The position numbers were made by a program, and so were the translations under genes. Shown piece by piece: positions 2 to 16,400 of a DNA stretch of 22,914 bases; position 1 is the first letter of the stretch, and each line of letters begins with the position of its first letter. The DNA comes from a virus, in the IMG/VR virus record IMGVR_UViG_3300035212_000611, positions 1 through 22,914 of that record; one strand, 5' to 3'. The notes under the pieces were generated by a model. That model worked only from the letters and a program-made list of their open reading frames with translations, was not told the origin of the DNA and made no database searches.

Positions 2-817
2 ACAAAGCATTCAGGAATAGAGTCGTTAGGAGCAAGAGAATTCCAAGTAGAACGAGGAATTTCAATGCCAATAAACTCTGAGAAAAAAAGCGGGGATAAG
101 ATTAGTGCCATCCAGTTATGGATAAAGTATAACGATGACACCTTTACTCAATCACCAACGACGTTGTTCTCATTAGACTCAGCAAGTCTAGACTTAGGCT
201 TCAATGTGATATCGGATCAGAGTGCAACGAGAGGAAGATTGTTCTCAACGAACCTAACCACTGGTCAAGAATATGTAGATCTAACATTCTATCAAGATGG
301 AATAGAAGTTATAACGCCTTACCTAGAAAAGGATAGATGGACTGTTATTGGAATTAATTTTGGAACCCCTATCGGATTCTCTAATTACACGGGGGCGTTG
401 AATCTATTCCAATCAGCAACGTTTAATGACATTGCCTACTATAAGGCAACATCTTTACAAGAAGCACAGTCAGTTATCTATAGGAGATGGGATAATGTTA
501 ATGGAACTCCACTTACCCCACTTGATTGGCAGTATTGGGTAGGTAGCACAGATCCCTATGGTAAATGGGATAATGTTCTCAAACTTGCAGAAAAGAATAT
601 TTATGGAGTAAGCCCAGAAACATTGTATAAGTCATATACTGGAACAAACAGACAAATTGTAGATGACGGAGAATTATTAATAATTTCAGATAGTGGGCTA
701 ACAGTCTTTGCAAGCAGCATGAAGGATGAAACCTATAGTTCAATCTACCCAACAAAAACTAGAATGGTTGTTAACAATAGTCCAGAATGGTCCTCCTATA
801 ACAAAAAACCAGTATAA
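2..817 (+). CDS. Structural protein with LamG/concanavalin-like C-terminal region, 5' end outside window
   Basis: The frame is open from the left window edge, so this is probably the 3' part of a larger gene; the first ATG inside the window (65) has no ribosome site before it and I do not take it as the real start. The visible 271 codons are rich in beta-type sequence with spaced Trp, Gly and Asn (ISAIQLWIKYNDD near the beginning, then DRWTVIGINFGTP, ATFNDIAYYK). This pattern is typical of LamG/concanavalin-like carbohydrate- or surface-binding folds in phage structural proteins. It lies just upstream of the portal module, so it may be a minor virion or decoration/appendage protein. The TAA stop is embedded in a TATAAT element that may drive the next gene. 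The fold is inferred from pattern only; the function is unknown. Confidence 0.6.
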   Translation, partial: TKHSGIESLGAREFQVERGISMPINSEKKSGDKISAIQLWIKYNDDTFTQSPTTLFSLDSASLDLGFNVISDQSATRGRLFSTNLTTGQEYVDLTFYQDGIEVITPYLEKDRWTVIGINFGTPIGFSNYTGALNLFQSATFNDIAYYKATSLQEAQSVIYRRWDNVNGTPLTPLDWQYWVGSTDPYGKWDNVLKLAEKNIYGVSPETLYKSYTGTNRQIVDDGELLIISDSGLTVFASSMKDETYSSIYPTKTRMVVNNSPEWSSYNKKPV

Positions 818-818
818 T
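813..818 (+). promoter_or_regulatory. Putative -10 element (TATAAT) before the 827 gene
   Basis: TATAAT overlaps the TAA stop of the preceding gene and ends 8 nt before the ATG at 827. No Shine-Dalgarno is visible in the gap, so transcription starting about 7 nt downstream would give an essentially leaderless mRNA. No matching -35 is seen and the preceding triplet is not TGn, making this the weakest member of the set. Confidence 0.4.
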
Positions 819-826
819 CTGGTACA

Positions 827-1228
827 ATGATGGTTATGAGTAATACAAGAAAACCAAAAATTGGTAAAACTAAGATAACGCATATTGACAAGGGTACTGG
901 TCAAAGAAACATGTTTGGCTATGAGTGGGGACTTTACTTTTGGAGGTTACCCAATGGTCATCTTTTTAAAGATGGAGAGGGCAGAATGCTCAATATACCT
1001 TCCGTAAAAGGTGATATCAGTCAAATGTCAAAAATACGTCAAGCCGCAGCATCATATGGTCAACCAGATGGTGAGGCATGGTTCTATGCTGGTGCAAATA
1101 GGGCTACAGATGAAGAATATGACGAGCAACTTGATCGCTTGGATCAAGGTTTGATTCCATCAATGAATGATCTTGGTGCTGTTGCTGCCGCACAGAAAAC
1201 TCTCGCGGTATACGGAGATGCTGAATAA
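827..1228 (+). CDS. Hypothetical protein upstream of portal
   Basis: A 133-residue soluble protein that I do not recognise as a named family. It has a basic N-terminus (TRKPKIGKTKITH), a central aromatic stretch (YEWGLYFWRLPNGHLFKDGEG, residues about 32-52) and an acidic helical C-terminal half (DEEYDEQLDRLDQG). There are no membrane segments and no signal peptide. Its stop overlaps the portal start by one base (TAATG), so it is translationally coupled to the portal and probably works in head assembly or the portal vertex. ATG codons occur at 827, 830 and 836. I chose 827 because it fits a leaderless start 8 nt after a TATAAT. The role is unknown. Confidence 0.75.
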   Translation: MMVMSNTRKPKIGKTKITHIDKGTGQRNMFGYEWGLYFWRLPNGHLFKDGEGRMLNIPSVKGDISQMSKIRQAAASYGQPDGEAWFYAGANRATDEEYDEQLDRLDQGLIPSMNDLGAVAAAQKTLAVYGDAE

Positions 1229-2856
1229 TGTCAGAACTCCTTATTGATGCAAAGTTGGCAGATGCCATCATTGATAGTGAATTCTTGAATGCAGATCCTT
1301 TTAATAAGAGTTGGGAAGATCTGATTGCTCTAGATGGATTAAATAAGAATCTAAAGCGCAGAGTATCCCGTATGGAAAAAGCGAATACAACAATCAATAA
1401 CGTTCCTCGTCAAGCAGATGGTCAGATTTCTGAAAGATATTTATCTGAGGCAAATGCAATCGGGCAATCTGTTAGTGGCGATGCAAATTCAAAGAGGATT
1501 AATCCTGGTCAGGTATATAGAAACGGTTATGGAATATTCGATCTTATTACTCCACCATATAACCTATATGAACTTTCAGCGTATTATGATACGTCATTTG
1601 CCAACCATGCAGCAATAGATGCAAAAGTATCAAATACTGTTGGTCTTGGTTACAAGTTCGACATGACCACAGAGACACTGCTCAGACTAGAAGCAACATC
1701 AAGCGATTCTGCAAAGAATAAAGCCAAAAAGCGTATTGAGCAGTTGAAGATTCAAATGGCTGATTGGATAGAAAGTTGCAATGATGACGATAGTCTAACA
1801 AAGACTCTTGAAAAGGTCGTTACGGATATGCAAGCCACAGGAAATGGTTATATTGAAATTGGCATGGCAGTCACAGGAGAAATTGGATATATTGGTCATA
1901 TACCGTCAACCACAATGAGAGTACGTCGTTTGCATGACGGCTATATTCAGATTATTGCAGGAACTATTACATACTTTAGAAATTTTGGTGCAACAAACTC
2001 CAACCCAGTAACAACTGATAATAGACCCAACGAGGTCATTCATCTTAAAGAATATTCTCCACTCAACACATTTTATGGTGTTCCAGATATCATTGCAGCA
2101 ATGACTTCACTCCGTGGAGATCAGATGGCTGCACAGTACAATATCGACTACTTTGAGAACAAAGCAGTGCCACGATATATTATTACCGTAAAAGGTGCTA
2201 AGTTAACCCCAGAAGCAGAAGATAAGTTGTTTAGATTTTTTCAGACTGGACTCAAGGGTCAAAGCCATAGAACGCTGTATATCCCACTTCCTGGCGATAG
2301 CGAGGGGAGCAAGATTGAGTTTGAAATGCATCCTGTAGAGAATGGTGTGCAAGAAGCATCATTTAATGAATATAGAGTAAGAAATCGTGATGACATCCTT
2401 ATGGCTCACCAAGTACCCTTATCTAAGTTAGGTGGATCAGATACTGGACTTGCTGCTGCTATGAGTCAAGATAGAACATTTAGAGATCAAGTTGCAAAAC
2501 CCTTACAAGAATATATCCAAAAAGCGGTAAATAAGATTATCAAAGAAAAAACAGATGTTATCAAGTTATGCTTTAATCAAGTTAGTCTTACTGATGAAAT
2601 TGCAGAATCTCAGATCCTTGAAAGACTTGTAAAGAATAAAATTATTGTTCCAAACGAGGCAAGAGAAAGAATAGGATATCCACAAATGGATGGTGGAGAT
2701 GAACCTCTTGAACTTAATCCCCGTATGGCAGCAGATGCTAAGGCAAATGGTTCTAAGACAAGAGCAAGGGATACCGAAAGGTCAAATAATCAGTCTGATG
2801 GTGCTGGAGCAGTAACAGGTAGAAATCCTAAAGGTGAAGGAGCAAAAACATCATAA
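1228..2856 (+). CDS. Phage portal protein (PBSX/HK97-type)
   Basis: Portal proteins form the dodecameric ring at the capsid vertex through which DNA is packaged and ejected. At 542 residues the length is normal. Residues about 100-330 hold the typical core: TPPYNLYELSAYYD, then MQATGNGYIEIG (201-212), HIPSTTMRVRR, and NEVIHLKEYSPLNTFYGVP (268-286), followed by the stem/crown helices around 290-315. VPLSKLGGSDTGLAAAMSQD (397-416) is a hallmark segment of PBSX-style portals. The C-terminus (about 457-542) has ESQILERLVKNKIIVPNEAR followed by a polar, disordered tail. It overlaps the upstream stop by one base, and a GGAG at 1214-1217 may serve as ribosome site. Assigned by sequence pattern and by its place before protease and capsid; gene identity is secure. 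Confidence 0.93.
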   Translation: MSELLIDAKLADAIIDSEFLNADPFNKSWEDLIALDGLNKNLKRRVSRMEKANTTINNVPRQADGQISERYLSEANAIGQSVSGDANSKRINPGQVYRNGYGIFDLITPPYNLYELSAYYDTSFANHAAIDAKVSNTVGLGYKFDMTTETLLRLEATSSDSAKNKAKKRIEQLKIQMADWIESCNDDDSLTKTLEKVVTDMQATGNGYIEIGMAVTGEIGYIGHIPSTTMRVRRLHDGYIQIIAGTITYFRNFGATNSNPVTTDNRPNEVIHLKEYSPLNTFYGVPDIIAAMTSLRGDQMAAQYNIDYFENKAVPRYIITVKGAKLTPEAEDKLFRFFQTGLKGQSHRTLYIPLPGDSEGSKIEFEMHPVENGVQEASFNEYRVRNRDDILMAHQVPLSKLGGSDTGLAAAMSQDRTFRDQVAKPLQEYIQKAVNKIIKEKTDVIKLCFNQVSLTDEIAESQILERLVKNKIIVPNEARERIGYPQMDGGDEPLELNPRMAADAKANGSKTRARDTERSNNQSDGAGAVTGRNPKGEGAKTS

Positions 2857-2868
2857 CGATTTCGTTAT
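2853..2868 (+). other. Small inverted repeat at the portal 3' end
   Basis: ATAACGA and TCGTTAT form perfect 7-base arms around two bases, covering the portal stop. There is no T-tract, so it is a weak candidate for a terminator. It could be an RNA hairpin or simply chance. Confidence 0.3.
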
Positions 2869-2874
2869 AAATGA

Positions 2875-2883
2875 TGTTATAAT
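2875..2883 (+). promoter_or_regulatory. Putative extended -10 promoter (TGtTATAAT) before the protease gene
   Basis: TGTTATAATTA ends about 10 nt before ATG 2894. No Shine-Dalgarno lies between, so a leaderless or near-leaderless transcript is likely. The element lies inside the 60-bp N-terminal extension that a GTG start at 2834 would give, which argues for the later start. Confidence 0.55.
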
Positions 2884-2893
2884 TACAATAGTC

Positions 2894-4450
2894 ATGATTA
2901 AATTTCAGGAAACTAAAACAGCAATTAATGGCAATCATTTAAACTTTTCTACCCCAATCTCTAAGATTGATGTTGAAAAGAGAATGGTGCATGGCTTTGC
3001 AACCCTAGATAACCTTGATAAGCAGGGAGATATTGTTCCATTAGAAGCATCTATCAAGGCTTTTGAATCTTTTAGGGGCAATATTAGAGAGATGCATCAA
3101 CCGATATCTGTGGGCAAGGTAGTTTCTTTTAAGGAAGAAAAATACTTTGATGAGGATACAAATAAATTCTATAACGGAATCTATGTATCCGCTTATGTGA
3201 GCAAGGGTGCTCAAGATACATGGGAAAAAGTCATTGACGGAACTCTTACAGGATTCTCAATTGGTGGGGAAATTCATGAAACAGAAGATGTATACGACGA
3301 GCAGTTGGGGAAAAAGTGCCAAGTAATCAAGGCATATTCCTTGAGCGAACTTTCTTTAGTCGATAATCCAGCAAATCAATTTGCCAATGTTATTAGCATT
3401 GAAAAGGGAGAGGGTACAGGATACCTTATGAAAGCAACAATTGAAAACGTGTTCTGGTGCAAGATGGACGACGTTATTCAAATGTCATATGCAAATAATA
3501 AGGCGTGTCCTCAATGCGATAAGGCTATGGCAAATATTGGTTTTGTAGAAAGTAACGATGCAGAAAAGGCATCGGTCATAAAGGCAATAATTATTAATAC
3601 AAAGAAAACCATGATTCAAAAAAACATTGATATCGATTCATATGTTAAATTTGAAGGTAATTATGGAAGAGTAATTGATTTGGTATTTAAGGGTGGAGCA
3701 AGACTTTCGTCTGAAGAAGTTGCTGTTATGGCAAAAGCAGACGATCCTGTTGTGATAATAAAATTATACTCACAAAAGGACGGTATAATAATACCTACCA
3801 ATCGTCGCGTTATTAAAAATATTTCATTAGTAGAAAAGGTTAATGCGATTAGTAAATCAGAGGTGAAGGAGGTAAGCAAGATGGATTCAGATATTATCGT
3901 TGTAGATGAAATTGAAAAGGGCATGAGCGAAGATCAAGTCAATCCACCAATGGAGGACGCAATTCCTGTCACCATGGATGACACGCAGAAGGCTATTGAA
4001 ATTGAAGTTACAGAAGAAGATGAAACAGAAGAAGACTCAGAAGATGAAATGACAGAGAAAGCCTATTCAGAGGCCGAAGAAAAAGGCGAAATGAATGACG
4101 AGGCAAAGAAAGCCGTTTCACCATCAGCAGTCAGTGAAGAGGATGTTAATGCAACAACCAAAATGATTGATAGCATTAATGATCATCTTACATCTGCACT
4201 TTCCACTCTTGCTGAAACAGTAAAGGCTCTTGATGCCAAGATTGAAGGCATTAACAAGTCCATTGCTGGAGTTAGCAATGAGGTAAGTGAAGTAAAGGAT
4301 AGTTTTGGTAAGCGGGTAGATGCCGTAGAAAAGGACACCGCTTTCCGTAAATCTGCTGATCTTGGCGAGATCTTGCAGGAACAACCAGTAGTGGTTAGAA
4401 AATCACTATGGGGCGGCAGTTTCCTCAAAAATGCCGATCTATTTAACTAA
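2894..4450 (+). CDS. Capsid maturation protease (XkdF/S78-like) fused to a scaffold-like C-terminus
   Basis: 518 residues from ATG 2894. A GTG at 2834 is possible but has no ribosome site and would overlap the portal. Residues about 16-170 look like a prohead protease of the XkdF/HK97 type: FATLDNLDKQGDIV (35-48), HQP with candidate catalytic His68, GTLTGFSIGGE with candidate Ser122, and SELSLVDNPAN with candidate Glu152. Spacing is close to the known His-Ser-Glu triad of HK97 protease. Residues about 185-210 carry Cys189 and a CPQC pair (205-208), a possible zinc knuckle lacking an obvious fourth ligand. Next is an SH3-like stretch (SYVKFEGNYGRVIDL). An acidic Glu/Asp-rich linker and a heptad-rich coiled coil follow (IDSINDHLTSALSTLAETVK, KALDAKIEGINKSIAGV), resembling a scaffolding domain. 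It precedes the capsid gene, as expected. Protease identity is strong; the scaffold role is inferred. Confidence 0.88.
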   Translation: MIKFQETKTAINGNHLNFSTPISKIDVEKRMVHGFATLDNLDKQGDIVPLEASIKAFESFRGNIREMHQPISVGKVVSFKEEKYFDEDTNKFYNGIYVSAYVSKGAQDTWEKVIDGTLTGFSIGGEIHETEDVYDEQLGKKCQVIKAYSLSELSLVDNPANQFANVISIEKGEGTGYLMKATIENVFWCKMDDVIQMSYANNKACPQCDKAMANIGFVESNDAEKASVIKAIIINTKKTMIQKNIDIDSYVKFEGNYGRVIDLVFKGGARLSSEEVAVMAKADDPVVIIKLYSQKDGIIIPTNRRVIKNISLVEKVNAISKSEVKEVSKMDSDIIVVDEIEKGMSEDQVNPPMEDAIPVTMDDTQKAIEIEVTEEDETEEDSEDEMTEKAYSEAEEKGEMNDEAKKAVSPSAVSEEDVNATTKMIDSINDHLTSALSTLAETVKALDAKIEGINKSIAGVSNEVSEVKDSFGKRVDAVEKDTAFRKSADLGEILQEQPVVVRKSLWGGSFLKNADLFN

Positions 4451-4480
4451 AACAGAAAGAAATTCAGGAGGTGAAAGAAA

Positions 4481-5620
4481 ATGGCACAAGAAATTATTAA
4501 GAATCAACCAAGTGACACTGGAGAGTATGGCGATCCAAATCCAGGATTGTATCAGGGTCAAGGAGCAGTTGCCAACCTAGGAATCGGTGGAACCGATCCA
4601 GTTATGGGTGGTGATGCATGGGGAACAGCAGGAAATATTCCAGTTGCAAACTATGGTGATACAACAGGACCAAACGCAGTTAATCCAACTGGTGCTCCAG
4701 GTGGTATTCTAAACCCAGAACAGGCACGTCGTTTCATCGATTATGTCTGGGATGCAACAGTTCTCGCCCAAGATGGCCGTAGAGTTACAATGCGTGCAAA
4801 CACGATTGAACTTGAAAAGGTGAACGTTGGTGAGCGTGTTATTCGTTCAGCAGCACAGGCACTTGGTGAATACCAAAATGCTGGTGCAACATTCACAAAG
4901 GTAGAACTTACTACAAAGAAGATTCGTCTTGACTGGGAGGTTTCAACTGAGGCACTTGAAGATAACATCGAAGGTTCCGCACTTGAAGATCACCTAGTTC
5001 GTTTGATGACAAACGCTTTCGGTAATGATATTGAAGACCTTGCTATCAACGGAAATGCAGGAATGGACCCATTCCTTGGTATCATGAATGGTTTTGTGAA
5101 TCAGGTCACAACAAGTGGCGATGCACATGAAGCCGTAGTTGATACAACAGGTGGATGGACACCAGAGGTAATGCAGGAACTTATTTATGCAATGCCACGC
5201 AAGTACCGTGCAATCAAGTCAGGACTTAAGTTCTATGCAGGTACAGATATTTTTGCAAACATCGTAAAGAACAACGGTACACTTGCAGATGCTATCTCTG
5301 AGGCACTTATGCCAAGAGTTAGTGGAACACCAGGTCGTCGTGAGGATTACCTTTCAGGTAATGGTCAGACATTCGGTGGCGCTCGTACCACTCGCGTTCT
5401 TGGTATCGATGTTCAGGAAGTTCCTTACTACCCTGCGGATTATGTCGATTTGACATTCCCACAGAACCGTGTATGGGGATTCCAACGCGATATTACTGTT
5501 AACCGTGAATACAAGCCAAAGAAGGACACAATCGAATATACAATCTTTATTCGATTTGGTCTTACTTGGGAAGAACTTGACGCAGTTGCATTCGCAGAAG
5601 CATCACCAGTTGTTTCCTAA
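4481..5620 (+). CDS. Major capsid protein (HK97-fold type)
   Basis: 379 residues, preceded by the best ribosome site in the window, AGGAGGTGA at 4466-4474, which fits a very abundant product. Residues 1-75 are rich in Gly, Pro and Asn and look flexible. The fold proper begins near NPEQARRFIDYVWD and continues with VNVGERVIRSAAQALGEYQN and the beta-rich TFTKVELTTKKIRLDWEVS, then a helix (STEALEDNIEGSALEDHLVR) typical of the spine-helix/P-domain area. The C-terminal part has NRVWGFQRDITVNREYKPK and IFIRFGLTWEELDAVAFAEA, resembling the final strands of XkdG-like capsid proteins. It follows the protease/scaffold and is closed by a strong hairpin. Codons are visibly more biased than in flanking genes (frequent CGT, CTT, GCA, AAC, AAG), as expected for high expression. 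Confidence 0.93.
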   Translation: MAQEIIKNQPSDTGEYGDPNPGLYQGQGAVANLGIGGTDPVMGGDAWGTAGNIPVANYGDTTGPNAVNPTGAPGGILNPEQARRFIDYVWDATVLAQDGRRVTMRANTIELEKVNVGERVIRSAAQALGEYQNAGATFTKVELTTKKIRLDWEVSTEALEDNIEGSALEDHLVRLMTNAFGNDIEDLAINGNAGMDPFLGIMNGFVNQVTTSGDAHEAVVDTTGGWTPEVMQELIYAMPRKYRAIKSGLKFYAGTDIFANIVKNNGTLADAISEALMPRVSGTPGRREDYLSGNGQTFGGARTTRVLGIDVQEVPYYPADYVDLTFPQNRVWGFQRDITVNREYKPKKDTIEYTIFIRFGLTWEELDAVAFAEASPVVS

Positions 5621-5640
5621 TCAAAACAATGCTATGCTTT

Positions 5641-5664
5641 GGGGAGGGGCTTTTGCCCCTCCCC
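5641..5664 (+). terminator. Strong hairpin after the major capsid gene
   Basis: A perfect 10-bp G+C-rich stem (GGGGAGGGGC / GCCCCTCCCC) with a TTTT loop begins 20 nt after the capsid stop. The 3' T-run is short (TT), so it may act as a partial terminator or as a 3'-end stabiliser for the capsid mRNA. A promoter element follows directly. Confidence 0.8.
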
Positions 5665-5676
5665 TTAAGCATATAA

Positions 5677-5685
5677 TGATATAAT
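5677..5685 (+). promoter_or_regulatory. Putative extended -10 promoter (TGaTATAAT) after the capsid terminator
   Basis: TGATATAATTAC lies just behind the capsid hairpin; another TATAAT is at 5672-5677. No -35 is possible at normal distance because that position is inside the hairpin. Transcription from about 5692 would place AAGGAGG (5694-5700) at the very 5' end of the mRNA, 8 nt before ATG 5709. Confidence 0.6.
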
Positions 5686-5708
5686 TACTATAAAAGGAGG
5701 TACTTGTC

Positions 5709-6179
5709 ATGACAGAATTATCAGTAGAGCAGGTAGAAGAAGATTTAGAAGTTGAAACTGTTATTGAAACAAAAGAAGAACCAGTAGTCAAGGAAAAGGT
5801 AACAGAGTCTGTTGCTAAAGAAAACCTAGTTATAGAAAAGGTAAAAATTCAAGAAGCAACGGTAGCAGAAAATAACAAGGTTATTACTGGTCCAAAAAAA
5901 GTTAAGCCACCAAGGTCTTCAAATATGCAAGCAAAGTCTGACAATACCCTTGGATCAAAAGCGGCAGACAATTCATTCAAGAAGATCATTGTTGAAGAAA
6001 AGCCTAAGGACGATAATAAGGTTGCACTTTGGTCAAATAAGAATATTAGATGGACAGGTATTGGTTCATTATCAAAGGGTTACAATATTGTAACAAAGGA
6101 GGCATCCGAAAAATGGCTTAATAAGGAAGGTATCCGTAGTGCTACCCCTGAAGAAGTTGCAACATATTTCGGTAAATAG
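5709..6179 (+). CDS. Hypothetical acidic protein with a compact C-terminal domain
   Basis: 156 residues with a strong AAGGAGG ribosome site at 5694-5700. Residues 1-60 are low-complexity, dominated by Glu, Val, Lys and Thr. Residues about 60-100 form a basic, Ser/Lys-rich linker. Residues about 104-156 look folded (VALWSNKNIRWTGIGSLSKG, then TKEASEKWLNKEGIRSATPEE). Similar C-terminal segments occur, from memory, in proteins between capsid and connector genes of actinobacterial phages, but I know no assigned function. Head decoration, fibre anchoring or connector roles would all fit the position between major capsid and adaptor. Its own promoter and ribosome site suggest moderate to high expression. 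Confidence 0.75.
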   Translation: MTELSVEQVEEDLEVETVIETKEEPVVKEKVTESVAKENLVIEKVKIQEATVAENNKVITGPKKVKPPRSSNMQAKSDNTLGSKAADNSFKKIIVEEKPKDDNKVALWSNKNIRWTGIGSLSKGYNIVTKEASEKWLNKEGIRSATPEEVATYFGK

Positions 6180-6182
6180 CAT

Positions 6183-7199
6183 ATGGAGATTTCAAGAGTA
6201 CAGCCATTCCCATTAACATTTACTCAATCTGACTTTAATGCAAATACGGAATATGTTCTCTGCATTCTTGATGATCATGGTGGAGATCTTGTAGAAATTA
6301 GAACTCCTAGTGATGCAAGCGGTGTTATTTCAATATCATTGCCTAATTATTTTTCTAGGTATGATGATGAATATCGTGGAGAGATTTATTATAATCTTTC
6401 AATGACACCAGAAACAACAATTTTACGAGGAGATCTTGTATGGGTAGACACTATTACTATTATGCGACCATACCTAGATCCAGAAACAATTGCAGACACT
6501 CCAGAGGATATTGAAGATGCAAGAGTATATGAAGAAATATCCAGAGCAATAATTAATTCAATAACTGGTGGATTTATGTATAAGAGAGAGACTGTAGAAA
6601 CCGTTGGTTTAGGTAATGACTACCTATCAGTTCCTTTTAGATTAAACAAAATTATTAGAGTATATGAAAATGATATTATTGTTTATGACACAGAACCAGC
6701 AGATCCAGAAACTTGGACAAATGTAAGAGATTATTATATTACTCCAGATAAAGCATCAATAAGTATGTCTGTCCCAAATTCAAACGGATTAAATAGAAAT
6801 CAGTCTAAGCCAGTAAACACTAGAAGAGGCGCTTCTGATTCATTTACCTTATACAATACTAATGATTCACCAAACTTTGCATACGATGTATATGATAACA
6901 AGACCTTTTCAGATTTTGGGGCAAATGCAGCAATGTTTCCATCAGGATGGGACTATGTAGTTATTGTTGAAGCAGGTTGGCCTATTATTCCACAAGATAT
7001 TAAAAGAGCAACAGGACTTATTATTAATGATATTAAATGTAATAATCTTCCATATGTAAATCAATATATATCAGAATATAAAAGCGATCAATTTAATATA
7101 AAGTTTAATGATTTAGCATTCAGTGATACTGGTAATAGGATTGCTGATAGAATTCTTTCTGCTTATGTCAGACCGATCTATCGTCTTGGTGTGCTGTAA
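6183..7199 (+). CDS. Head-tail connector/adaptor protein
   Basis: 338 residues, starting 3 nt after the previous stop with no clear Shine-Dalgarno, so probably coupled. The N-terminal 90 residues are beta-rich (FTQSDFNANTEYVLCILDD, ISISLPNYFSRYDDEYRGE) and read as an added Ig-like or beta-sandwich domain. From about residue 96 (MRPYLDPETIADT) a helical adaptor-type domain begins, with EDARVYEEISRAIINSITGG. The C-terminal part WDYVVIVEAGWPIIPQDIKR and ATGLIINDIKCNNLPYVNQY is typical of head-completion (gp6/adaptor-like) proteins that bind under the portal. Place and helical pattern support the adaptor role; the exact family name is uncertain. Confidence 0.72.
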   Translation: MEISRVQPFPLTFTQSDFNANTEYVLCILDDHGGDLVEIRTPSDASGVISISLPNYFSRYDDEYRGEIYYNLSMTPETTILRGDLVWVDTITIMRPYLDPETIADTPEDIEDARVYEEISRAIINSITGGFMYKRETVETVGLGNDYLSVPFRLNKIIRVYENDIIVYDTEPADPETWTNVRDYYITPDKASISMSVPNSNGLNRNQSKPVNTRRGASDSFTLYNTNDSPNFAYDVYDNKTFSDFGANAAMFPSGWDYVVIVEAGWPIIPQDIKRATGLIINDIKCNNLPYVNQYISEYKSDQFNIKFNDLAFSDTGNRIADRILSAYVRPIYRLGVL

Positions 7200-7675
7200 T
7201 GAAGTTATTTCCTTGCTATAGTCTATTCTTTCCAATGCATGTGGATGTTTATTATTCAGTAGAAAGTCAAGATGATTATGGAAAAATGGTAAAAACTTGG
7301 TTTTTTGATAGAACAGAGCACTGTTCAATTTTTTCAATTAGTGATAAGTCAAATGATGAAAATTTTACATTTAATTCTGCAAATAAGGATATATTTTTTA
7401 AATTAGAAACTATGCTTTATGGAAGAACTCAAACTGATTTAAGAAAGTCTTTATCTGGAGAGTATTATCCATTATCCAGTGTTTTAGTGAAAAACATTCG
7501 CGGTACAGAACCAGAAGATTCATTCTTTATTGAAACTGTTGGAGGTTATAGTGGGCAGCCAACAATATATGAAATAAAAGCCAATCAGCCATATATAGGT
7601 CCATTTAATAAAGTGGACTATTTTAAGATACAGTTAGAACGTTCAGATATTCAAGGAGAATTAGTAATATGCTAA
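7199..7675 (+). CDS. Probable head-tail stopper / connector protein
   Basis: 158 residues. The start overlaps the previous stop by one base (TAATG), giving coupled translation. The protein is beta-rich with HVDVYYSVESQDDYGKMVKT near the start, a form common in small stopper proteins (gp16/XkdH-like) that begin with a strand pair and a 'DDYG' turn. The later part has LSSVLVKNIRGTEPEDSFFI and ETVGGYSGQPTIYEI. It sits in the stopper position between adaptor and neck protein. Cys6, Cys42 and Cys158 are the only cysteines and show no metal motif. Assigned mostly from synteny. Confidence 0.6.
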   Translation: MKLFPCYSLFFPMHVDVYYSVESQDDYGKMVKTWFFDRTEHCSIFSISDKSNDENFTFNSANKDIFFKLETMLYGRTQTDLRKSLSGEYYPLSSVLVKNIRGTEPEDSFFIETVGGYSGQPTIYEIKANQPYIGPFNKVDYFKIQLERSDIQGELVIC

Positions 7676-8340
7676 CAACTAGAGTAGATAATTCTAAATT
7701 ACAAAGAGTATTTAAGAATACCGTTGAGTATTCTGAAGGATTTATTCAGGGAATAGATATTAATAAACTTAATTTTAATAATGAATTAGCAAATTTTACT
7801 TCAATTACATTAAAAAAGTATATAGATTCACAAGCAAGAATGAACCCCTTAAAACTTCATCATGTATATGAGTGGGGAAAGGCTGGAAATGAAGCCTCAA
7901 GGCTGTTTGAATTCGATACAGCGGTAACTGGAAGAACAATCTCAATCACAGGAAGGTTTCTTCCATCAAAGTCTATTAGCGATACATCTTCAGAACCATT
8001 TACAAATAAAGCAACAATTATGGAAAATGCAATTGCCGTAGTTATTGAACCAAAGAATAGCGACGTTCTTGCATTTGAAAATAATGGGGAAACAGTATTT
8101 ACTACAAATGCTATATACATAGATCATCCTGGTGGGGATGAAGTGGCTAATGGGTTTGGATCAACCGTTAATAATTTTTTTGATAATTATTTTACTAACG
8201 GCTTATTGAAACCACTTATTAATAAACTATCAACAGCAAATGAATTTACCGAATCTTTTTCTGCTGGAGTTATGAATGGGAAAAATATAGGAATTCAAGC
8301 GGGTAAAAGATATTTTGATATTAAGGGAATAGTCGAATGA
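7669..8340 (+). CDS. Neck / tail-completion protein (HK97 gp10-like position)
   Basis: 223 residues. The ATG overlaps the preceding gene by 7 bases (ATGCTAA) and has AAGGAG at 7653-7658. Early residues form helices (ANFTSITLKKYIDSQARMNP), followed by LHHVYEWGKAG (63-73), a motif that I associate with phage minor-tail/neck proteins of the HK97 gp10 class. A beta-rich core follows (GRTISITGRFLPSK, AIAVVIEPK), then a C-terminal helical section. With the stopper before and terminator after, it should act at the head-tail joint or tail completion. The motif gives moderate support; otherwise assignment is by order. Confidence 0.62.
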   Translation: MLTTRVDNSKLQRVFKNTVEYSEGFIQGIDINKLNFNNELANFTSITLKKYIDSQARMNPLKLHHVYEWGKAGNEASRLFEFDTAVTGRTISITGRFLPSKSISDTSSEPFTNKATIMENAIAVVIEPKNSDVLAFENNGETVFTTNAIYIDHPGGDEVANGFGSTVNNFFDNYFTNGLLKPLINKLSTANEFTESFSAGVMNGKNIGIQAGKRYFDIKGIVE

Positions 8341-8840
8341 GTCTAACAGATTTAACATTGCCAGTACTAGCCGTAAACGGTTATTTATGGGATACAATGA
8401 AAGATATTGAGCCAAGTTTTGCAAGTAGATATGGCTCTACCTTGCCATTCTTCCCCCTTAGCGATTCAGCAACGGGAGCCAGTTGGGAAAATAAACCTTA
8501 TATCATCTACGATAGAATGATGAGAACAACTGGAAGCCCGTTCTACCCAATAAAAAAAGATCATATACTTTATGCAGTAAAGGCAACAGACATAGAATCA
8601 TTGCAATGGGGTCTTGCAATCGAATACATTCTTGACAGAATGGATGATGCTGCTCAGGACATTAATGAATGGAATAGATTAAAGGGAAATAAATATAAGG
8701 TATATTTTCATAATTTAAGAGTATTCCAGTCTGAGTCTTCAACTAATAGAAACTTCAGTACAAGACCATATTATATTACGGAATTTATTGTTCAGTCTGA
8801 ATATCATTTTACTGAACCGATTGAGTCTTTTTTGACATAA
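8337..8840 (+). CDS. Tail terminator protein
   Basis: 167 residues, ATGA overlap with the previous gene and AAGGGA at 8323-8328. The protein has the alpha/beta order of tail terminators: an N-terminal helix, a strand (ENKPYIIYDRMMRT), a strand/helix (DHILYAVKATDIESLQWGLA), and C-terminal strands (YKVYFHNLRVFQSES, RPYYITEFIVQSEYHFTE). Terminators form a hexamer that ends tail tube growth and joins the tail to the head. Position directly before the tail tube gene agrees. Sequence alone would give only modest support. Confidence 0.65.
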   Translation: MSLTDLTLPVLAVNGYLWDTMKDIEPSFASRYGSTLPFFPLSDSATGASWENKPYIIYDRMMRTTGSPFYPIKKDHILYAVKATDIESLQWGLAIEYILDRMDDAAQDINEWNRLKGNKYKVYFHNLRVFQSESSTNRNFSTRPYYITEFIVQSEYHFTEPIESFLT

Positions 8841-8848
8841 ATACCTAG

Positions 8849-8854
8849 TATAAT
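8849..8854 (+). promoter_or_regulatory. Putative -10 element (TATAATTA) before the tail tube gene
   Basis: TATAAT lies 8 nt after the terminator gene stop and 55 nt before the tube ATG. The preceding triplet is TAG, not TGn. A TTGACA at 8832-8837 is present but only 11 nt away, too close for a normal -35. The leader carries GAGGTGAA at 8897-8904 as ribosome site. Confidence 0.5.
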
Positions 8855-8909
8855 TAGTATTGAGGAAACGCCAGCAAAAAAATTCAAAGGAAAATAGAGG
8901 TGAAGTAAA

Positions 8910-9581
8910 ATGGCTTATAGTCGTGGTGATTCAAAGCAGATTATCGTTGGTGCAGCAGCACTTTTCGTATCAAGCACTGCTGAATTCGATCCAGCAAACG
9001 TCAGTCCAGCACTACCAGATTTCGTGGCAGGTACAGCCTACCGCGAAACACTTTCAAACTCAAGCGTCGTCCGTAACGTCGGATATACATCAAATGGTTT
9101 GGAGATTCAGTTCCAACCTGACTTTGGTGAAGTTCAAGTAGATCAACTTCTTGACGTTGCAAAGTTGTACAAGCAAGGTATGCAGGTTAATCTTAATACA
9201 GCATTTGCAGAAGCAACACTTGAGAACCTTCTCGTTGCAGTTGCTGCAAGCAGTGAAGATCTTGCAAAGGATGTAAAGATGGACAACCCAATTGAATTGG
9301 GAACTGTTAACTATGCAGACGTAATGGAAATCAAGGCAGGCGAACTTGGCGAATGCCCAGTAGAGCGTGGACTTGTTGCAATCGGACCTGGCACAGGAGA
9401 TTGTGCAGCAGGTAGTTCAATCGAAAGAATCTATGTTGCTTACCGTGCGCTCTCAATTGAGAACGTTACAGTATCTGCAAAGAGAGATGCGGCTTCAATG
9501 TTTGAAGTTTCATTCCGTTTGCTCCCAGCAAACAACGGTTCTTACGGAAAGATTGTTGACCGTCTCGTCCCATCTTCATGA
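8910..9581 (+). CDS. Major tail (tube) protein
   Basis: 223 residues, forming the stacked hexamer rings of the tail tube. The N-terminus (SRGDSKQIIVGAAALFVSS) enters a tube-like beta fold with VVRNVGYTSNGLEIQF and QPDFGEVQVDQLLDVAKLYK, the typical strand-helix arrangement of this family, and ends with SAKRDAASMFEVSFRLLP. The protein lies between terminator and tail chaperone, exactly where the tube gene is expected. Ribosome site GAGGTG at 8897-8902. Codon choice is biased in the same way as in the major capsid gene (many CGT, CTT, GTT, GCA, AAC), fitting a highly produced virion protein, and a strong terminator follows. Cys154 and Cys178 (roughly) are the only cysteines. Confidence 0.88.
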   Translation: MAYSRGDSKQIIVGAAALFVSSTAEFDPANVSPALPDFVAGTAYRETLSNSSVVRNVGYTSNGLEIQFQPDFGEVQVDQLLDVAKLYKQGMQVNLNTAFAEATLENLLVAVAASSEDLAKDVKMDNPIELGTVNYADVMEIKAGELGECPVERGLVAIGPGTGDCAAGSSIERIYVAYRALSIENVTVSAKRDAASMFEVSFRLLPANNGSYGKIVDRLVPSS

Positions 9582-9605
9582 TAGGATCATAACTTAATAG
9601 GCATC

Positions 9606-9628
9606 AGCCCCGCTTCGGCGGGGCTTTT
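9606..9628 (+). terminator. Rho-independent terminator after the tail tube gene
   Basis: An 8-bp stem AGCCCCGC / GCGGGGCT with the very stable TTCG tetraloop is followed by TTTT. This is a textbook intrinsic terminator 24 nt after the tube stop. The next promoter element starts 9 nt later. Confidence 0.92.
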
Positions 9629-9636
9629 GTCATGCA

Positions 9637-9645
9637 TGATATAAT
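9637..9645 (+). promoter_or_regulatory. Putative extended -10 promoter (TGaTATAAT) for the chaperone and tape measure genes
   Basis: TGATATAATTTG follows the tube terminator. The place of a -35 would be inside the hairpin, so recognition must rely on the extended -10 or on a phage factor. It lies 32 nt before ATG 9678; the ribosome site is GAAAGGG, 9662-9668. Confidence 0.6.
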
Positions 9646-9677
9646 TTGTTTACTAACCTTAGAAAGGGTAAAATAAA

Positions 9678-10019
9678 ATGGCTACTACAGTTTTTGAAAA
9701 AACAGACCTAGTTCTCATGGACGGAACAAAGATTTCTATGCGTCCATTAAAGATTTCACTTCTTCGTAAGTTCATGAAGAAGTTCGACACTGTTGTTGAT
9801 GTTGCTTCAAGCAATGTTGACTCAATGGATGTCCTTATTGATTGTGCCCTCATTGCAATGGAACAATATGCTCCAGATCTTTCAGGAGATCGTGAAAAGT
9901 TTGAAGATGTTGCTGATATTAAAATGGTTTACAAGATTATTGAAGTTGCCTCTGGTATTAAGTTGGACGCAGAGGGAAACGATCAGGCGACAGCGGCGGC
10001 ACTACTTGGTCAGAATTAG
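9678..10019 (+). CDS. Tail assembly chaperone, short form (G-like)
   Basis: 113 residues. The chaperone binds the tape measure protein and recruits tube subunits during tail growth; it is not expected in the virion. Sequence TDLVLMDGTKISMRPLKIS at the N-terminus and KKFDTVVDVASSNVDSMDVL in the helical middle are typical of G-type proteins of actinobacterial siphoviruses. The position between tube and tape measure genes is diagnostic. Most ribosomes should read to the TAG at 10017-10019 and make this form. A slippery site near codon 100 lets a fraction shift to the longer GT form. Confidence 0.85.
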   Translation: MATTVFEKTDLVLMDGTKISMRPLKISLLRKFMKKFDTVVDVASSNVDSMDVLIDCALIAMEQYAPDLSGDREKFEDVADIKMVYKIIEVASGIKLDAEGNDQATAAALLGQN

Positions 10020-10381
10020 ACCTCGCTGTCCTTGAATCAGAAATATTTCTCTTAGGAAATTGGAAAGATTATGAAGAATTAGAAGATAATCTTTCTATGC
10101 CAGAATTAACCGCAACGTTAACAGCAATAAGAGAAAAAGAAAATAATCATAATAAGTTTCTTGCAGCAATTCAAGGAATTGATCTTGATGAAAATTCTAC
10201 TGAAAGCAAGGGACAAAAAGAATGGGAAGATCTCAAGGCAAGAGTATTTAGCGGGGGAACTGCAAAAGACTCAAATGATATAACATCTCTTCAAGGAATA
10301 AATGCTTCACAGGCTGGATTTGGCATTGGCGCTGGTCTTTCTTATGACAATGTAGGAGATGGATCAGGCAGTTGGGCATAA
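9678..10381 (+). CDS. Tail assembly chaperone, frameshifted long form (GT-like)
   Basis: Join of 9678-9980 and 9980-10381 by a -1 ribosomal frameshift, giving 234 residues (101 from the first frame, then 133). The downstream frame is open well upstream of its first ATG (10097), which lacks a ribosome site, so it should be reached by frameshifting. After Gly100-Asn101 the product continues RSGDSGGTTWSELDLAVL, ESEIFLLGNWKDYEELEDN and ends with a Gly/Ser-rich tail (GFGIGAGLSYDNVGDGSGSW). The G/GT arrangement is conserved in long-tailed phages, with the T part contacting the tape measure protein. The tape measure gene follows directly. Confidence 0.88.
9974..10030 (+). promoter_or_regulatory. Programmed -1 frameshift signal: GGGAAAC plus downstream stem
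   Basis: The heptamer GGGAAAC (9974-9980) is in the correct phase, G GGA AAC, for canonical tandem slippage. Eight bases later a 7-bp stem is possible between GACAGCG (9989-9995) and CGCTGTC (10024-10030), with a loop of about 28 nt. Spacing is that expected for a stimulatory structure; a pseudoknot is possible but not shown. Confidence 0.85.
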
Positions 10382-10388
10382 CAAGAAA

Positions 10389-10397
10389 TGGTATAAT
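10389..10397 (+). promoter_or_regulatory. Putative extended -10 promoter (TGgTATAAT) before the tape measure gene
   Basis: TGGTATAATTTA lies in the 35-nt gap between GT and the tape measure gene, 19 nt before ATG 10417. Ribosome site AAGGTG is at 10403-10408. Transcription from here would let the tape measure gene be expressed apart from the chaperones. Confidence 0.5.
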
Positions 10398-10416: not shown

Positions 10417-13400
10417 ATGGCAGATGTAAATGCAATCATTAATATAGACATAAATTCGTCTTCTGCATTGGCAAACCTTAAAAGGCTTGAAAGTCAAATT
10501 GATCAATTTAATCGATCTGTTGCAACAAGCAATGCCACCGCCGCAGCATCACAGCAAAGTTTAAACAAAGCATTAATTGATGGCATAAATAATACTGGTT
10601 TATTCACTTCAAGAATCGTTCCAGTTGAATCATCAATGACAAGATTTTCAAGATCTTTAGATGAGGGTCGCCTATCTCTTGGAGAATACTCAAGACATGC
10701 TGCATCTCAAATGCCGGGACTAAGCAGATTATTTAGAAGAGAATTTGACACTATTGAGCAAGTTGCTACGTCTAGAGTTAAATCAATGCAAACTCAATAC
10801 CTTGCCCTTGGAAAAACGGTAGATGGAGTTACAAGAACAATTGCCTCAACTCCAACAGGATTAACAAAAGGAATTGCTACAGATCTTGCGATTACTCAGC
10901 AACGTCAGCAAATGTTTAATAAACTTCTTGATGATGGTTCAACTAAATTATTGAACTGGGGAAAGAATACTCAGTGGGCTGGGCGTCAGTTGATGGTTGG
11001 ATTTACGCTCCCACTTGCTGCATTTGGTGCAGCAGCATCTAAAACATTTATGGAAATAGACAAGGCAACTATATCACTTAAAAGAGTTTATGGTGATCTT
11101 AGTACGACTAAGGCAGAATTAGACTCAAACGTTGAAGCAGTAAAGGGTCTTGGCAAGGAATATACCAAATACGGAATTACGCTATCAGAAACAATTGCCT
11201 TGAGTGCTCGCGCAGCCGCTACAGGAGCAACAAATGAAGCATTAATGGCCGCAACAGAGCAGACTTTAAGATTTGCAACCCTAGGTCAAATGGATTATAA
11301 TCAAGCACTTGATACAACCATTTCACTTCAAACTGCATTTGCAATATCAAATGAAGATCTTGGAAAAACTGTTGATTACCTAAACGCGGTAGAAAACCAA
11401 ACAATCTTAACCATGGAAGACATGTCACTTGCTATTCCAAGAGTTGCAACAGTAGTTAAGGGTCTTGGAGGTAGTGTTGAAGACCTTGCAATCATGATGA
11501 CGGCCATGCGCGAGGGTGGAGTAAGTGCAGAAAATGCTGCAAATGGCTTGAAGTCTGGTCTTGCCTCATTAATTAATCCAACAAGTAGGGCATCTGAAGG
11601 TTTGGCTAAAATGGGGGTAAATCTAAATTCAATAATCTCTCAGAATAAGGGCGACCTTATGGGTATCATTACTGAGTTTGGAACGGCAATTAATAAACTA
11701 GATGAATTTAGTCGTCAGCAAGTTCTTGAACAAGTTTTTGGTAAATATCAGTACGCAAGAATGAGTGCTTTATTTACTAATATTACAAAAGATGCAGGAC
11801 AGGCTGCAAGAGCAATGGATATTGCAGGAATGTCAGCAGCCGATTTAGCCAAGATTTCAGAAAAAGAACTTGGTCAAATATCTGAATCAACATCTGTAAA
11901 ATTTCAGGCAGCAATGGAACAACTTAAAATTTCAATTGCTCCTATTGGAGAAGCATTCTTAAAGGGTATTACTCCAATAGTAAACATGGTTTCAAAAATT
12001 GCAGATGCATTTAATAATCTTCCTGACGGTGTAAAGAATGCGATGGCCGTAATAACTGCGGTAGTTGCAGGACTGGGACCAGTAATACTTATGACAATTG
12101 GTCTGCTTGGCAATGGTTTTGCAAATATAATTAAAACTGTTCAATTTTTTAGAAAAAGCATTGCAGGAATTAAAGGAGATGCTTCAGCATTTACTTGGTT
12201 GGCTCAAGGAGAACTTGAAGCGGTAACTGCAACTAAAGCACTTGAAGGTAGTGCTGTAACTCTTACTGATAAATTACTTCTTCAACGAGGAGCGGTTGCT
12301 GGCCTTACCGCAGAATATGAAAGATTTACACGCGCCGCAGGTATTGCTAGAGCAGAGATGGGATCAATGGGTGGAGCACCTGTTCCTAGCGGTGGGGGCA
12401 GACCACCAGTACCAACACCAAGATTACGCAGAAACACAGGTGGAACAATTCCAGGTGTTGGAAGTACCGATACAGTTCCAGCAATGTTAACACCTGGAGA
12501 ATTTGTAATCAACAAAAAGTCAACTGCTCAAAATCTTCCATTGCTTCATGCAATCAATGATGGAAAAACAATGGGGGCATTTAATGGAGGTGGACAAACT
12601 GATGAAAAGGGTAATGCAGTAAAGTCAACTTTTACTCATCTGGTTAAAGGAGAAGATATTGAAGGAAGAGGCCACCCAAGGAGAGCAATTGCTTTACCAA
12701 AAGATTTAAAAGAACTAGCAGATGCTCTTGGCATTAAAGCCAGACCCATTACTGGAATTGGAATAGATTTAAAGAATGGAGGCGATATAAACGATAGATT
12801 AGAAAAAAGAAACAGAAATAAAAATTTTGAAAATCCTGTAACCGCAGAAGAATTTTTAAAAGCAATAAAATCAAGTGGAAGCAATACGTTTGATTATATG
12901 AAATCAATAGATCCTGATCTAGGATTGGCAGTAGAAAAAGGATTAAAAGAGTGGTTAGGAAAAAGTCGTCCAAATATGGTGCTAGATGATTCTATTATCA
13001 GTAAAAGAGTTATGAAGATAATAGACGAAAGTGGTTTAAGTTCTAGAAGAAAAAATAATTTTTTGGCAACAGAAGGATGGAGACTTTCTGGTCAAATAGG
13101 TGAGAGTGCAATTGCTAAAGCATTAGAAGAAAAAAGAATTAAACGATCTTGGCAAGAAAAAGATGGAGCAGGTAAAACTAGATATGTTGCAGTTGAACTT
13201 GATAGTGGAAAAATTATAGCCTATAGAACAGGAAATATCAGTACTGGTGGTGGAGTTAATCAACAAGGTGGAGATAATTATAAAGTATATGATTCATTTG
13301 AAGAGTATGATGCTTTTACTCAGGCATCGGTTGGTAAAGGGGGAAGAAAGAAAACGTCAAGAATTCCAATGAGTGCGGGAGCATTTAGAGGAAGGCTTTT

Positions 13401-16400
13401 AAGATCTTTGCCAATTGTCCATAGAAATTCCGGTGGACCGATTTTTGAATCACAAAGCAAGATAGTTCCAGGAATGGGTAACACAGACACTGTTCCTGCA
13501 ATGTTAACTCCTGGAGAGTTTGTGGTAAACAAACAATCTACCAGAGAAAACTTAGGTCTACTTCATGCAATCAATGATGGACAAGTAATTAATAGAAATA
13601 AAGGTGGACAAATTCCAAGGTTTAATCGTGGTGGAAGATTCCTTGGAATGCCACAAAAGTTTAATACTAAATTAGAAAAAGAATTACGGGAATCAACACG
13701 ACTAGCACAAAGTGGTCCGGGTAGTCAATTACCAATATCAGAATTTGGAGCATTGGAGCAGGGCATTGGTGGATATAGTGCTGCGTTCCCTGGATTAAAT
13801 GGAATATATGTAGATGCAGCGGGAAGAAAAGTAGTATACAAATCTCATCCTAATTTTGAATCAGCAGAAGCAGAAATGCTTAGCGGAAGATTAATGAGTT
13901 CCTTATTTGGACTAGAGTCTCCAAGTCAAGTAGTAGTAAAGAGAACACACCCAATTACGGGCGATGTCGTATTTGGTGTTGAATCAGAATTTGATAAGAA
14001 ATTTGCAATAAGTGAAACAGTAGAGGCAGGTAGTGGAAGACAGTTTACTCCTTCAGAAGCCGCTCGTCAATTTATTGCAAGTGGAATAAGAAGGGACAGA
14101 GATCTACAACCCGCAAATATTCGCGGCAATATTGTAGTGGATCAAGGTGTTGCGGTTACTGGAGTAAATGATAAAGGCGAACCACGGGCAATGGCTCAGG
14201 GTAGAGTCACAACAACTGATCCAAGATCAGTTACCGAACAGTTACAAGTCAATGCCATAATGGGGAAGGGTGGGGCCAAAAAGTTTCTTGCAGAAAATCT
14301 TGCAGATATTGCAAGATCAGTAGGCCCAGAAGAATTTGAAAGATTAATGGTTTCCGCTGTTTCAGAAGCAAGGACTAAATTAAACACATCTATTGATAAC
14401 CTTCCAACATCAGAGTCAACAAAAAACATGTACAGGTCCATTCTTACAAAAGACTTTGATGAGTTACAAGCAACATCATGGAGATCATACTATGATCACT
14501 TAGAGTCTTTTACAGTACCAGTTGCAAAACAACCAACTGAGGCTGCATTAAAGAAATTAGAATTAGCAAGACAAGAGTCTAAAAGGTCAAAAGCATCAAT
14601 AGACATGGCTGAACACAATATCGTTTCAGGAAGGCTGGGTCTTCCTACTGCGTGGGCAAGAGGGGTATTCAGGAACACTGGAGGTCCAATATTTGAATCA
14701 CAGACTAAGATAGTTCCTGGAGTTGGAAGTACTGATACTGTCCCTGCAATGTTGACTCCTGGAGAGTTTGTAATCAATAAGCAAGCGACCAGAGAAAATC
14801 TTCCACTACTTCATGCTATCAATAATGGTCAAGCAATTAATAGAAACAAGGGTGGACAAATTCCCGGTATGCAATATTTTGCAACACCTAGACCACAAAG
14901 AGTAGTACAAAAGCCAGAAATGCCATCAGCAAAGATTGAGCCATTCATAACAGACCCAGCATTATTTGCTCCGGGAGGCGCGTACTATGGATTTGAAGAA
15001 AGAACACTATCTAGTGGATTGAGAATATTAAGAAACCTTAAGGGCGATGGATCAACTGTTATGCTACAGATGGGCAAGTATCAGCCATTTCATGTAGGAC
15101 ATGAAAAATTGTTAAATCAAAGTATTGCATCCGCACGCAAAGACGGAGCAGATTTTGTTTTTGGTGCAAGCGGATCATATGGAGTTCAATCAAACAACCC
15201 ATTAAGCCCTAAGTTGAAGAAAAGACTTATTGAAGAAGCAACTGGGATAAGTCCAAATATGGTAGGAGTTACTTCATCTGGTAAAAAGTTAGACGACCTT
15301 CTTGCTGATTTGCTTAACGAGGGCGGGTATTCAAGATTTATGCCAGCCATTGGTTCGGATAAGGTTACTGGACGTGATGACTCAGGCAAGCCTAAAAATT
15401 CATATAGTGGTGCAGCAAGTCGAATCCGGTCAAGCGACGGCGAACGAAGTTTTGAAATAATTGAAGGATTTACATTGCCAAGAGATGCATCAACTGAGGT
15501 GTCTAACTCTTCTGGAACACTTCTTAGGGAATTGGCAATGGCTGGAAAATTTGAAGAATTTACTAAATTGATGCCTGCCTCAGTATCAGACGACACAATG
15601 AAAAAAGTATATCGTGAAATAATAAAGTATAAACCCTTCCTAAAAAGCAGGCAACCAATTCCAGAAGAACATAATGTAAAGGGGTACTCTCGTGGTGGCG
15701 GGGTAGGCAGATTTAAAAATTGGTCACCACAATCTTTAAAAACAAGTAATGCAAAAAGAGAGCAATTACTAGAAACTTTCGCTCAAGAACAATTTGGAGT
15801 TTCGTTTTCAGAACTATCAAGTCCAATAAGAAAACGCTTGATAGAAAATAGTTACGATTTAATTGGCACAAGTGTTCCAGTTTCTCGTCAAACAGATAGG
15901 GGTGCAAGAATATTTGGGGCTTCTAGAATTGATGCTACAGAGTCAAGAGCACTAACGCTTGAACAGATGATAAGAAGAGATGCAACTGAGAGAGCATATA
16001 AGAGATACCAGCAAGCGGTAGTTAATGGGGAACCAAATCCAAGAAGACATTTGCCAAGAGATATTCAAGACAAGTATGACAATCTGGAAATGGGATTTAA
16101 TAAGGGTGGGCAAATTCCTAATGTTCAGCATTTAATGGCTGGAGGAAGGGTAAAGAATCCTTGGGAGATGTCACCACAAGAGTTTATATCAGCCCCTGGA
16201 ACATTATGGCATGGAAACTTTGCTAACACTAGAAGAAATACTTATGGGAATCCAGTAAATAACACAAGCCAAGAAATTGTAAATTCAGTTGGGGCACATG
16301 CTGGAAGTAGAGACTCAGCAATGCTAAGGCTATCACATTTATTGGAAGATCCAGAACTTGGATATTCAAGGTCAGATGCCAGATTACATCCAATGAGACT

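Follow-up and report, generated by a model that had tools for sequence, protein, structure and literature searches.

Does the short TATAAT-type box that recurs between the virion genes of an uncultured phage mark a promoter and, if so, which polymerase would read it? The window analyzed here is the whole stretch of 22,914 nt, a 22.9 kb virus contig of 38% G+C. It holds a virion-gene module in which all genes from 836 to 22914 run in one direction, encoding a small protein, portal (PF04860), prohead protease (phrog_9427), major capsid and connectors, followed by an Ig-domain major tail protein, a two-frame tail chaperone and a tape measure protein (PF10145 match; >4100 residues). No Rfam family was found in the window. 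The module is collinear with Streptomyces phages Muntaha, Yaboi, Sham, Jay2Jay and Coruscant (Stanwilliamsviridae; portal 45-47% and capsid 41-44% identical to the window) and, somewhat more distantly, with Rhodococcus phages Francesca and Weasels2, which stand outside that family's filing. By gene order and identity, the window phage is an uncultured actinophage related to Stanwilliamsviridae. The cultured relatives, the presence of WhiB in several metagenomic relatives, and one relative's contig that was binned in an Actinomycetota MAG, the sole direct clue to the host, together point to an actinobacterial host. Our set of relatives consists of 80 metagenomic loci from IMG/VR, all partial genomes, in which genes were called with a hexamer model whose calls agree with the window ORFs.

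Across the window as a whole, TATAAT occurs at chance level (26 found, 23.4 expected), so that any signal is positional. The gaps contain seven forward copies and none in reverse, against 0.72 +/- 0.82 expected from dinucleotide shuffles, and 0/300 shuffles reached a gap count of seven; TGnTATAAT occurs in these gaps four times against 0.05 expected. The original prediction, made from the letters of this DNA, had listed these same seven matches with an expectation of less than one, and both statements agree with our counts. In the 519 codirectional gaps (31.4 kb) of the relatives, TATAAT is present 293 times forward and 16 times in reverse, an 18-fold strand bias. Forward TGnTATAAT numbers 191 in the whole 0.9 Mb, and 178 of these sit in gaps, which make up 3.5% of the sequence. 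Isolates likewise show enrichment of TATAAT-type boxes in gaps on the forward strand only. AT-rich gaps could in principle yield TATAAT by chance or within ribosome-site and terminator sequence, and both the base composition of the window and its chance-level total are compatible with such an origin; however, the shuffles and the strand control rule it out, and the elements are conserved in isolates of 42-53% G+C, leaving this explanation with virtually no probability.

Table 1. Promoter-like boxes and associated features of the window, with a conserved stretch found in Streptomyces phage records
Feature	Position	Strand	Context	Orthologous sites
TATAAT overlapping the preceding gene's stop codon	813..818	+	Upstream of P1; no TGn, wrong distance	
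P1, extended -10 TGGTACAAT	820..828	+	For gene starting ATG 836; predicted leaderless	TGnTATACT/TACAAT/TATAAT upstream in 38/39 relatives, most often 7 nt before ATG
P2, extended -10 TGTTATAAT	2875..2883	+	For prohead protease (ATG 2894) and capsid; predicted near-leaderless	TATAAT in 54/59 relatives, mostly 9-10 nt before ATG
Terminator-like hairpin	5634..5672	+	Behind major capsid gene; 3' arm in -35 place of P3	Hairpin after capsid gene detected in 63/74 relatives
Second TATAAT, no TGn	5672..5677	+	Upstream of P3, in tandem	
P3, extended -10 TGATATAAT	5677..5685	+	For gene 5709 and head-tail connectors	TGnTATAAT in 72/74 relatives; also in several isolates
P4, -10 TATAAT without TGn	8849..8854	+	For major tail (Ig-domain) protein at 8910	TATAAT or TGnTA[TC]A[AC]T in 40/40 distinct relatives
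GAGGAAAC	8862..8869	+	Predicted 5' end of tail protein mRNA	
Terminator-like hairpin	9600..9631	+	Behind major tail gene (fold; terminator scan); 3' arm in -35 place of P5	
P5, extended -10 TGATATAAT	9637..9645	+	For tail assembly chaperones (9678)	TGn promoter in 37/37 distinct relatives
P6, extended -10 TGGTATAAT	10389..10397	+	For tape measure gene (10417)	14/34 distinct relatives (less conserved)
Endolysin-adjacent stretch	L083:9944-10085			
Endolysin-adjacent stretch	L084:13696-13832			
Endolysin-adjacent stretch	L087:9115-9253			
Endolysin-adjacent stretch	L088:10344-10480			
Endolysin-adjacent stretch	L089:10401-10527			

Conservation of the element (TATAAT or TGnTA[TC]A[AC]T, scored in orthologous gaps of distinct relatives) depends on which gene follows. 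The element precedes gene 836 in 37/38, the protease in 46/51, gene 5709 behind the capsid gene in 57/59 distinct gaps, the major tail gene in 40/40, the chaperone in 37/37 and the tape measure gene in 14/34. It is absent before the portal (0/25) and before two connector genes (g7669, 0/31; term8337, 0/38), and nearly absent before the capsid (1/59) and adaptor (2/50) genes, so that these gaps serve as built-in negative controls. The same gaps of cultured Streptomyces and Rhodococcus phages hold TGnTATAAT or the looser TATACT, TATTAT, TAAAAT and TACAAT, often directly behind a terminator. This comparative evidence marks the repeated boxes as genuine and deeply conserved, and as putative start signals ahead of virion genes in a large family of actinobacterial phages. 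The prediction had taken the TATAAT at 813 as the element of the first gap, which was probably a misassignment: orthologues indicate that the working element there is probably TGGTACAAT, 7 nt before the conserved ATG, with the box at 813 probably secondary or unused.

The logo of 223 distinct sites from relatives reads TGnTATAATt, with T at 0.73 and G at 0.65 in the TGn, a weak upstream A/T preference and no -35 motif, bearing out the earlier description of the boxes as lacking a -35. TGn directly precedes four of the six window boxes (at 2875, 5677, 9637 and 10389) and five of the six continue as TATAATT, as described earlier; the TATAAT-like hexamer of TGGTACAAT is preceded by TGn as well. 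At P3 and P5, the -35 place had been predicted to fall inside a hairpin, and it does lie in the 3' arms of stable folds (-31.3 kcal/mol, z -5.3, and -23.4 kcal/mol, z -5.8, respectively). Over 212 distinct sites, TGn is present in 64/66 with a hairpin versus 62/146 without one (p 4e-16, a value that overstates independence because sites within one gap family share descent; most of the weight of the association comes from two or three such families). A -35 with at least 5/6 matches occurs at 0/64 hairpin TG sites and 3/62 other TG sites, and an excess of -35 elements over shuffles is seen only at TG-less sites (9 versus 2.1 expected). In mix-and-match promoters, TGn is known to replace the -35 in just such a trade-off (PMC2613000). 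Taken at the level of sequence, these counts show a design rule: with a terminator hairpin in the -35 place, TGn is nearly obligatory.

The box-to-ATG distances form two groups. A Shine-Dalgarno lies between box and start at 4/65 sites no more than 12 nt from the ATG, compared with 68/75 sites at 13-25 nt, so that the close sites look leaderless; P1 and P2 are predicted to give leaderless or near-leaderless mRNAs. Leaderless starts are normal in Actinobacteria, accounting for 20% of genes in C. diphtheriae (PMC5784534) and for 24% in M. smegmatis (PMC6448022). Ahead of the major tail gene, GAGGAAAC is present in 41/41 distinct relatives and follows the -10 by 6-7 nt in 39 of them, suggesting that the tail protein RNA should start at this conserved sequence. 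GAGGAAAC lies ~40 nt before the ordinary Shine-Dalgarno of the gene, and no other gap of the virion module has it right behind the -10; it could be a 5'-end stabilizing or regulatory site. In Streptomyces phages (L083, L084, L087-L089), the predicted 5' end of the tail-gene transcript has GAGGAAGT and, behind it, a possible small hairpin.

The sequences establish the location, strand bias, conservation, consensus and spacing of the boxes and their absent -35; transcription from them, termination at the hairpins and the identity of the sigma factor we infer. In the reading we favor, to which we give a probability of about 0.86, the boxes are extended -10 promoters for host RNA polymerase carrying the housekeeping sigma. 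Sigma region 2 would read TATAAT and region 2.4/3.0 would read TGn, making the -35 dispensable; since no -35 is needed, the promoter could abut the stem of the terminator before it. The virion module would be split by these promoters into short transcription units: gene 836 to portal; protease to capsid, with a terminator at the end; connectors; major tail gene, again ending in a terminator; chaperones; and tape measure. Two units would begin leaderless or nearly so and the rest with short leaders, mostly having a Shine-Dalgarno. TGnTATAATnG is a functional strong sigma-A extended -10 core in Corynebacterium (PMC3917453), and sigma region 2 was found in none of seven complete cultured or 15 partial relatives by a search that detected its positive controls. 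Because the box equals the published sigma-A consensus and the phages have no detected region 2, the host housekeeping sigma is the economical reader. We also looked for the box in host promoters: in the MAG containing a relative's contig (G016), a possibly contaminated bin and so no guide to the host consensus, 111 gaps had no TATAAT and no -10 enrichment, and exact TGnTATAAT is rare in the chromosomes of 40 genomes of that MAG's class. In another genome of the class (G033), TGnTATAAT (15 matches in all) is clustered on a few contigs, notably C139 and C140, which may be phage or prophage sequence that was binned with it.

The original prediction offered an alternative, in which a sigma factor or late activator of the phage would read the box as a short promoter of its own, and the fixed consensus and location would fit. 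Small region-4-like HTH proteins are encoded by 2/7 complete and 2/15 partial relatives, albeit below family cut-offs, and another freshwater actinophage family, the Planktophila phages, encodes a sigma-70 factor (PMC10202952); moreover, with partial metagenomic relatives and an incomplete window genome, a sigma gene could lie elsewhere. However, region 2, which reads the -10, is the part found in 0/7 complete and 0/15 partial relatives, the box is the housekeeping consensus, and Streptomyces and Rhodococcus isolates use TATACT, TACAAT and TAAAAT variants, as host sigma would tolerate. We consider a phage-encoded reader very improbable. N4-type hairpin promoters were rejected, as the hairpins resemble terminators and the large ORF, rather than encoding a virion RNA polymerase, is the tape measure (PF10145).

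The boxes had further been described as a dedicated class. A promoter class of extended -10 type is supported by TGn, the consensus -10 and gap-by-gap conservation, but its dedication to virion genes is not. In the seven complete isolates, where the virion module was taken as -12 to +28 kb from the capsid gene, TGnTATA[AC]T is found in 25/145 virion-module gaps versus 22/616 further right (p 5.5e-8; odds ratio 5.6), an enrichment short of exclusivity, and metagenomic relatives have their extended -10 boxes scattered along whole contigs. Both observations argue for a general strong promoter type without an exclusive late class; by its sequence distribution, the extended -10 is such a general type, which in isolates is densest around the virion genes. 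In the right arm of Sham (L144), many gaps combine a perfect TTGACA with a weak -10, and AAGCTT frequently lies within a terminator stem or close to one. The virion promoters of Sham, unlike this right-arm style, are mostly extended -10 without -35. Sham alone suggested two exclusive promoter classes, right arm versus virion, an idea that fails over the seven genomes.

Conceivably, host sigma reads the boxes while a phage WhiB-like protein on region 4 shifts polymerase away from -35-dependent promoters and toward these -35-free ones, in the manner of AsiA in T4. WhiB (PF02467) is encoded by 7/7 complete relatives and, above cut-off, by three partial ones; SigA region 4 is bound by a number of Wbl proteins (PMC6282962), and T4 AsiA, itself a region-4 binder, leaves the TGn/-10 promoter PrIIB2 uninhibited (PMC2988021), which together make a WhiB-based switch a testable idea by analogy. 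The two promoter styles of Sham and the excess of extended -10 boxes in the virion gaps of the isolates would accord with it. Yet TTGACA has a similar per-gap frequency in the virion module (16/145) and to its right (79/616) of the seven isolates, so that -35-dependent promoters are not confined to an early class there; this even spread argues against a clean division of promoter classes. The contig-wide occurrence of extended -10 boxes in metagenomic relatives also speaks against the switch, and WhiB is common across actinophages generally (PMC8612146). We regard the switch as unlikely; if true, it would give actinophage WhiB a transcription-switch role.

Familiar extended -10 promoters of the sigma-70/sigma-A type include galP1 and lambda PRE. 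Like these and the C. glutamicum TGnTATAATnG promoters, the phage boxes lack a usable -35, have TGn a single base ahead of a consensus -10, and leave ~6-7 nt from the -10 to the predicted start; unlike them, they stand in series before orthologous virion genes across a family, mostly match the consensus exactly and are often fused to the terminator before them. As with T4 middle promoters and AsiA, the phage promoters would need no contact of sigma region 4 with a -35, and the phages encode a protein family, WhiB, known to bind region 4. Unlike T4 middle promoters, no MotA-like box appears in the phage logo, and WhiB is a family different from AsiA. Actinobacterial leaderless promoters share with the phage set a -10 ~6-10 nt before the ATG and no Shine-Dalgarno; we found no sequence difference between them, and the phage set is their counterpart.

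The kind of signal is already well known, in our reading ordinary extended -10 promoters for host polymerase. What is new, as a description drawn from sequence, is the conserved map, the packing of promoter against terminator and the predicted leaderless starts; our literature searches turned up no promoter map of this family. The map offers base-level promoter and terminator positions, portable by homology, for the virion genes of widespread uncultured actinophages, and extends to cultured Streptomyces and Rhodococcus relatives. With it come predicted leaderless virion mRNAs and a compact design rule, by which the extended -10 is used when the -35 place belongs to a terminator, and the role of phage WhiB becomes testable in Streptomyces phages.

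One seeming gap, 10020-10096, is coding by way of a predicted -1 frameshift. GGGAAAC at 9974-9980 is an in-phase -1 slippery heptamer joining the tail chaperone frames (9678-10019, on to 10381), the -1 frame stays open to 10381, and the annotations of several relatives give this joined chaperone product too; we predict that 9974-9980 is a -1 ribosomal frameshift site. The tape measure gene that follows (10417-22914) is open at the window end with >4165 codons, ~2x the length in cultured relatives, and a segment around GSTDTVPAMLTPGEFVINK is repeated in it many times, separated by unlike stretches.

Elsewhere in the family's neighborhood, 120 Streptomyces phage records share a conserved, apparently unannotated stretch between the endolysin and the next gene (five examples in Table 1). 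One copy tested had no Rfam match. The stretch carries its own extended -10 in some records, plus a terminator, and its predicted branched fold shows both-sided changes at 10/37 pairs over five sequences, making it a candidate small RNA.
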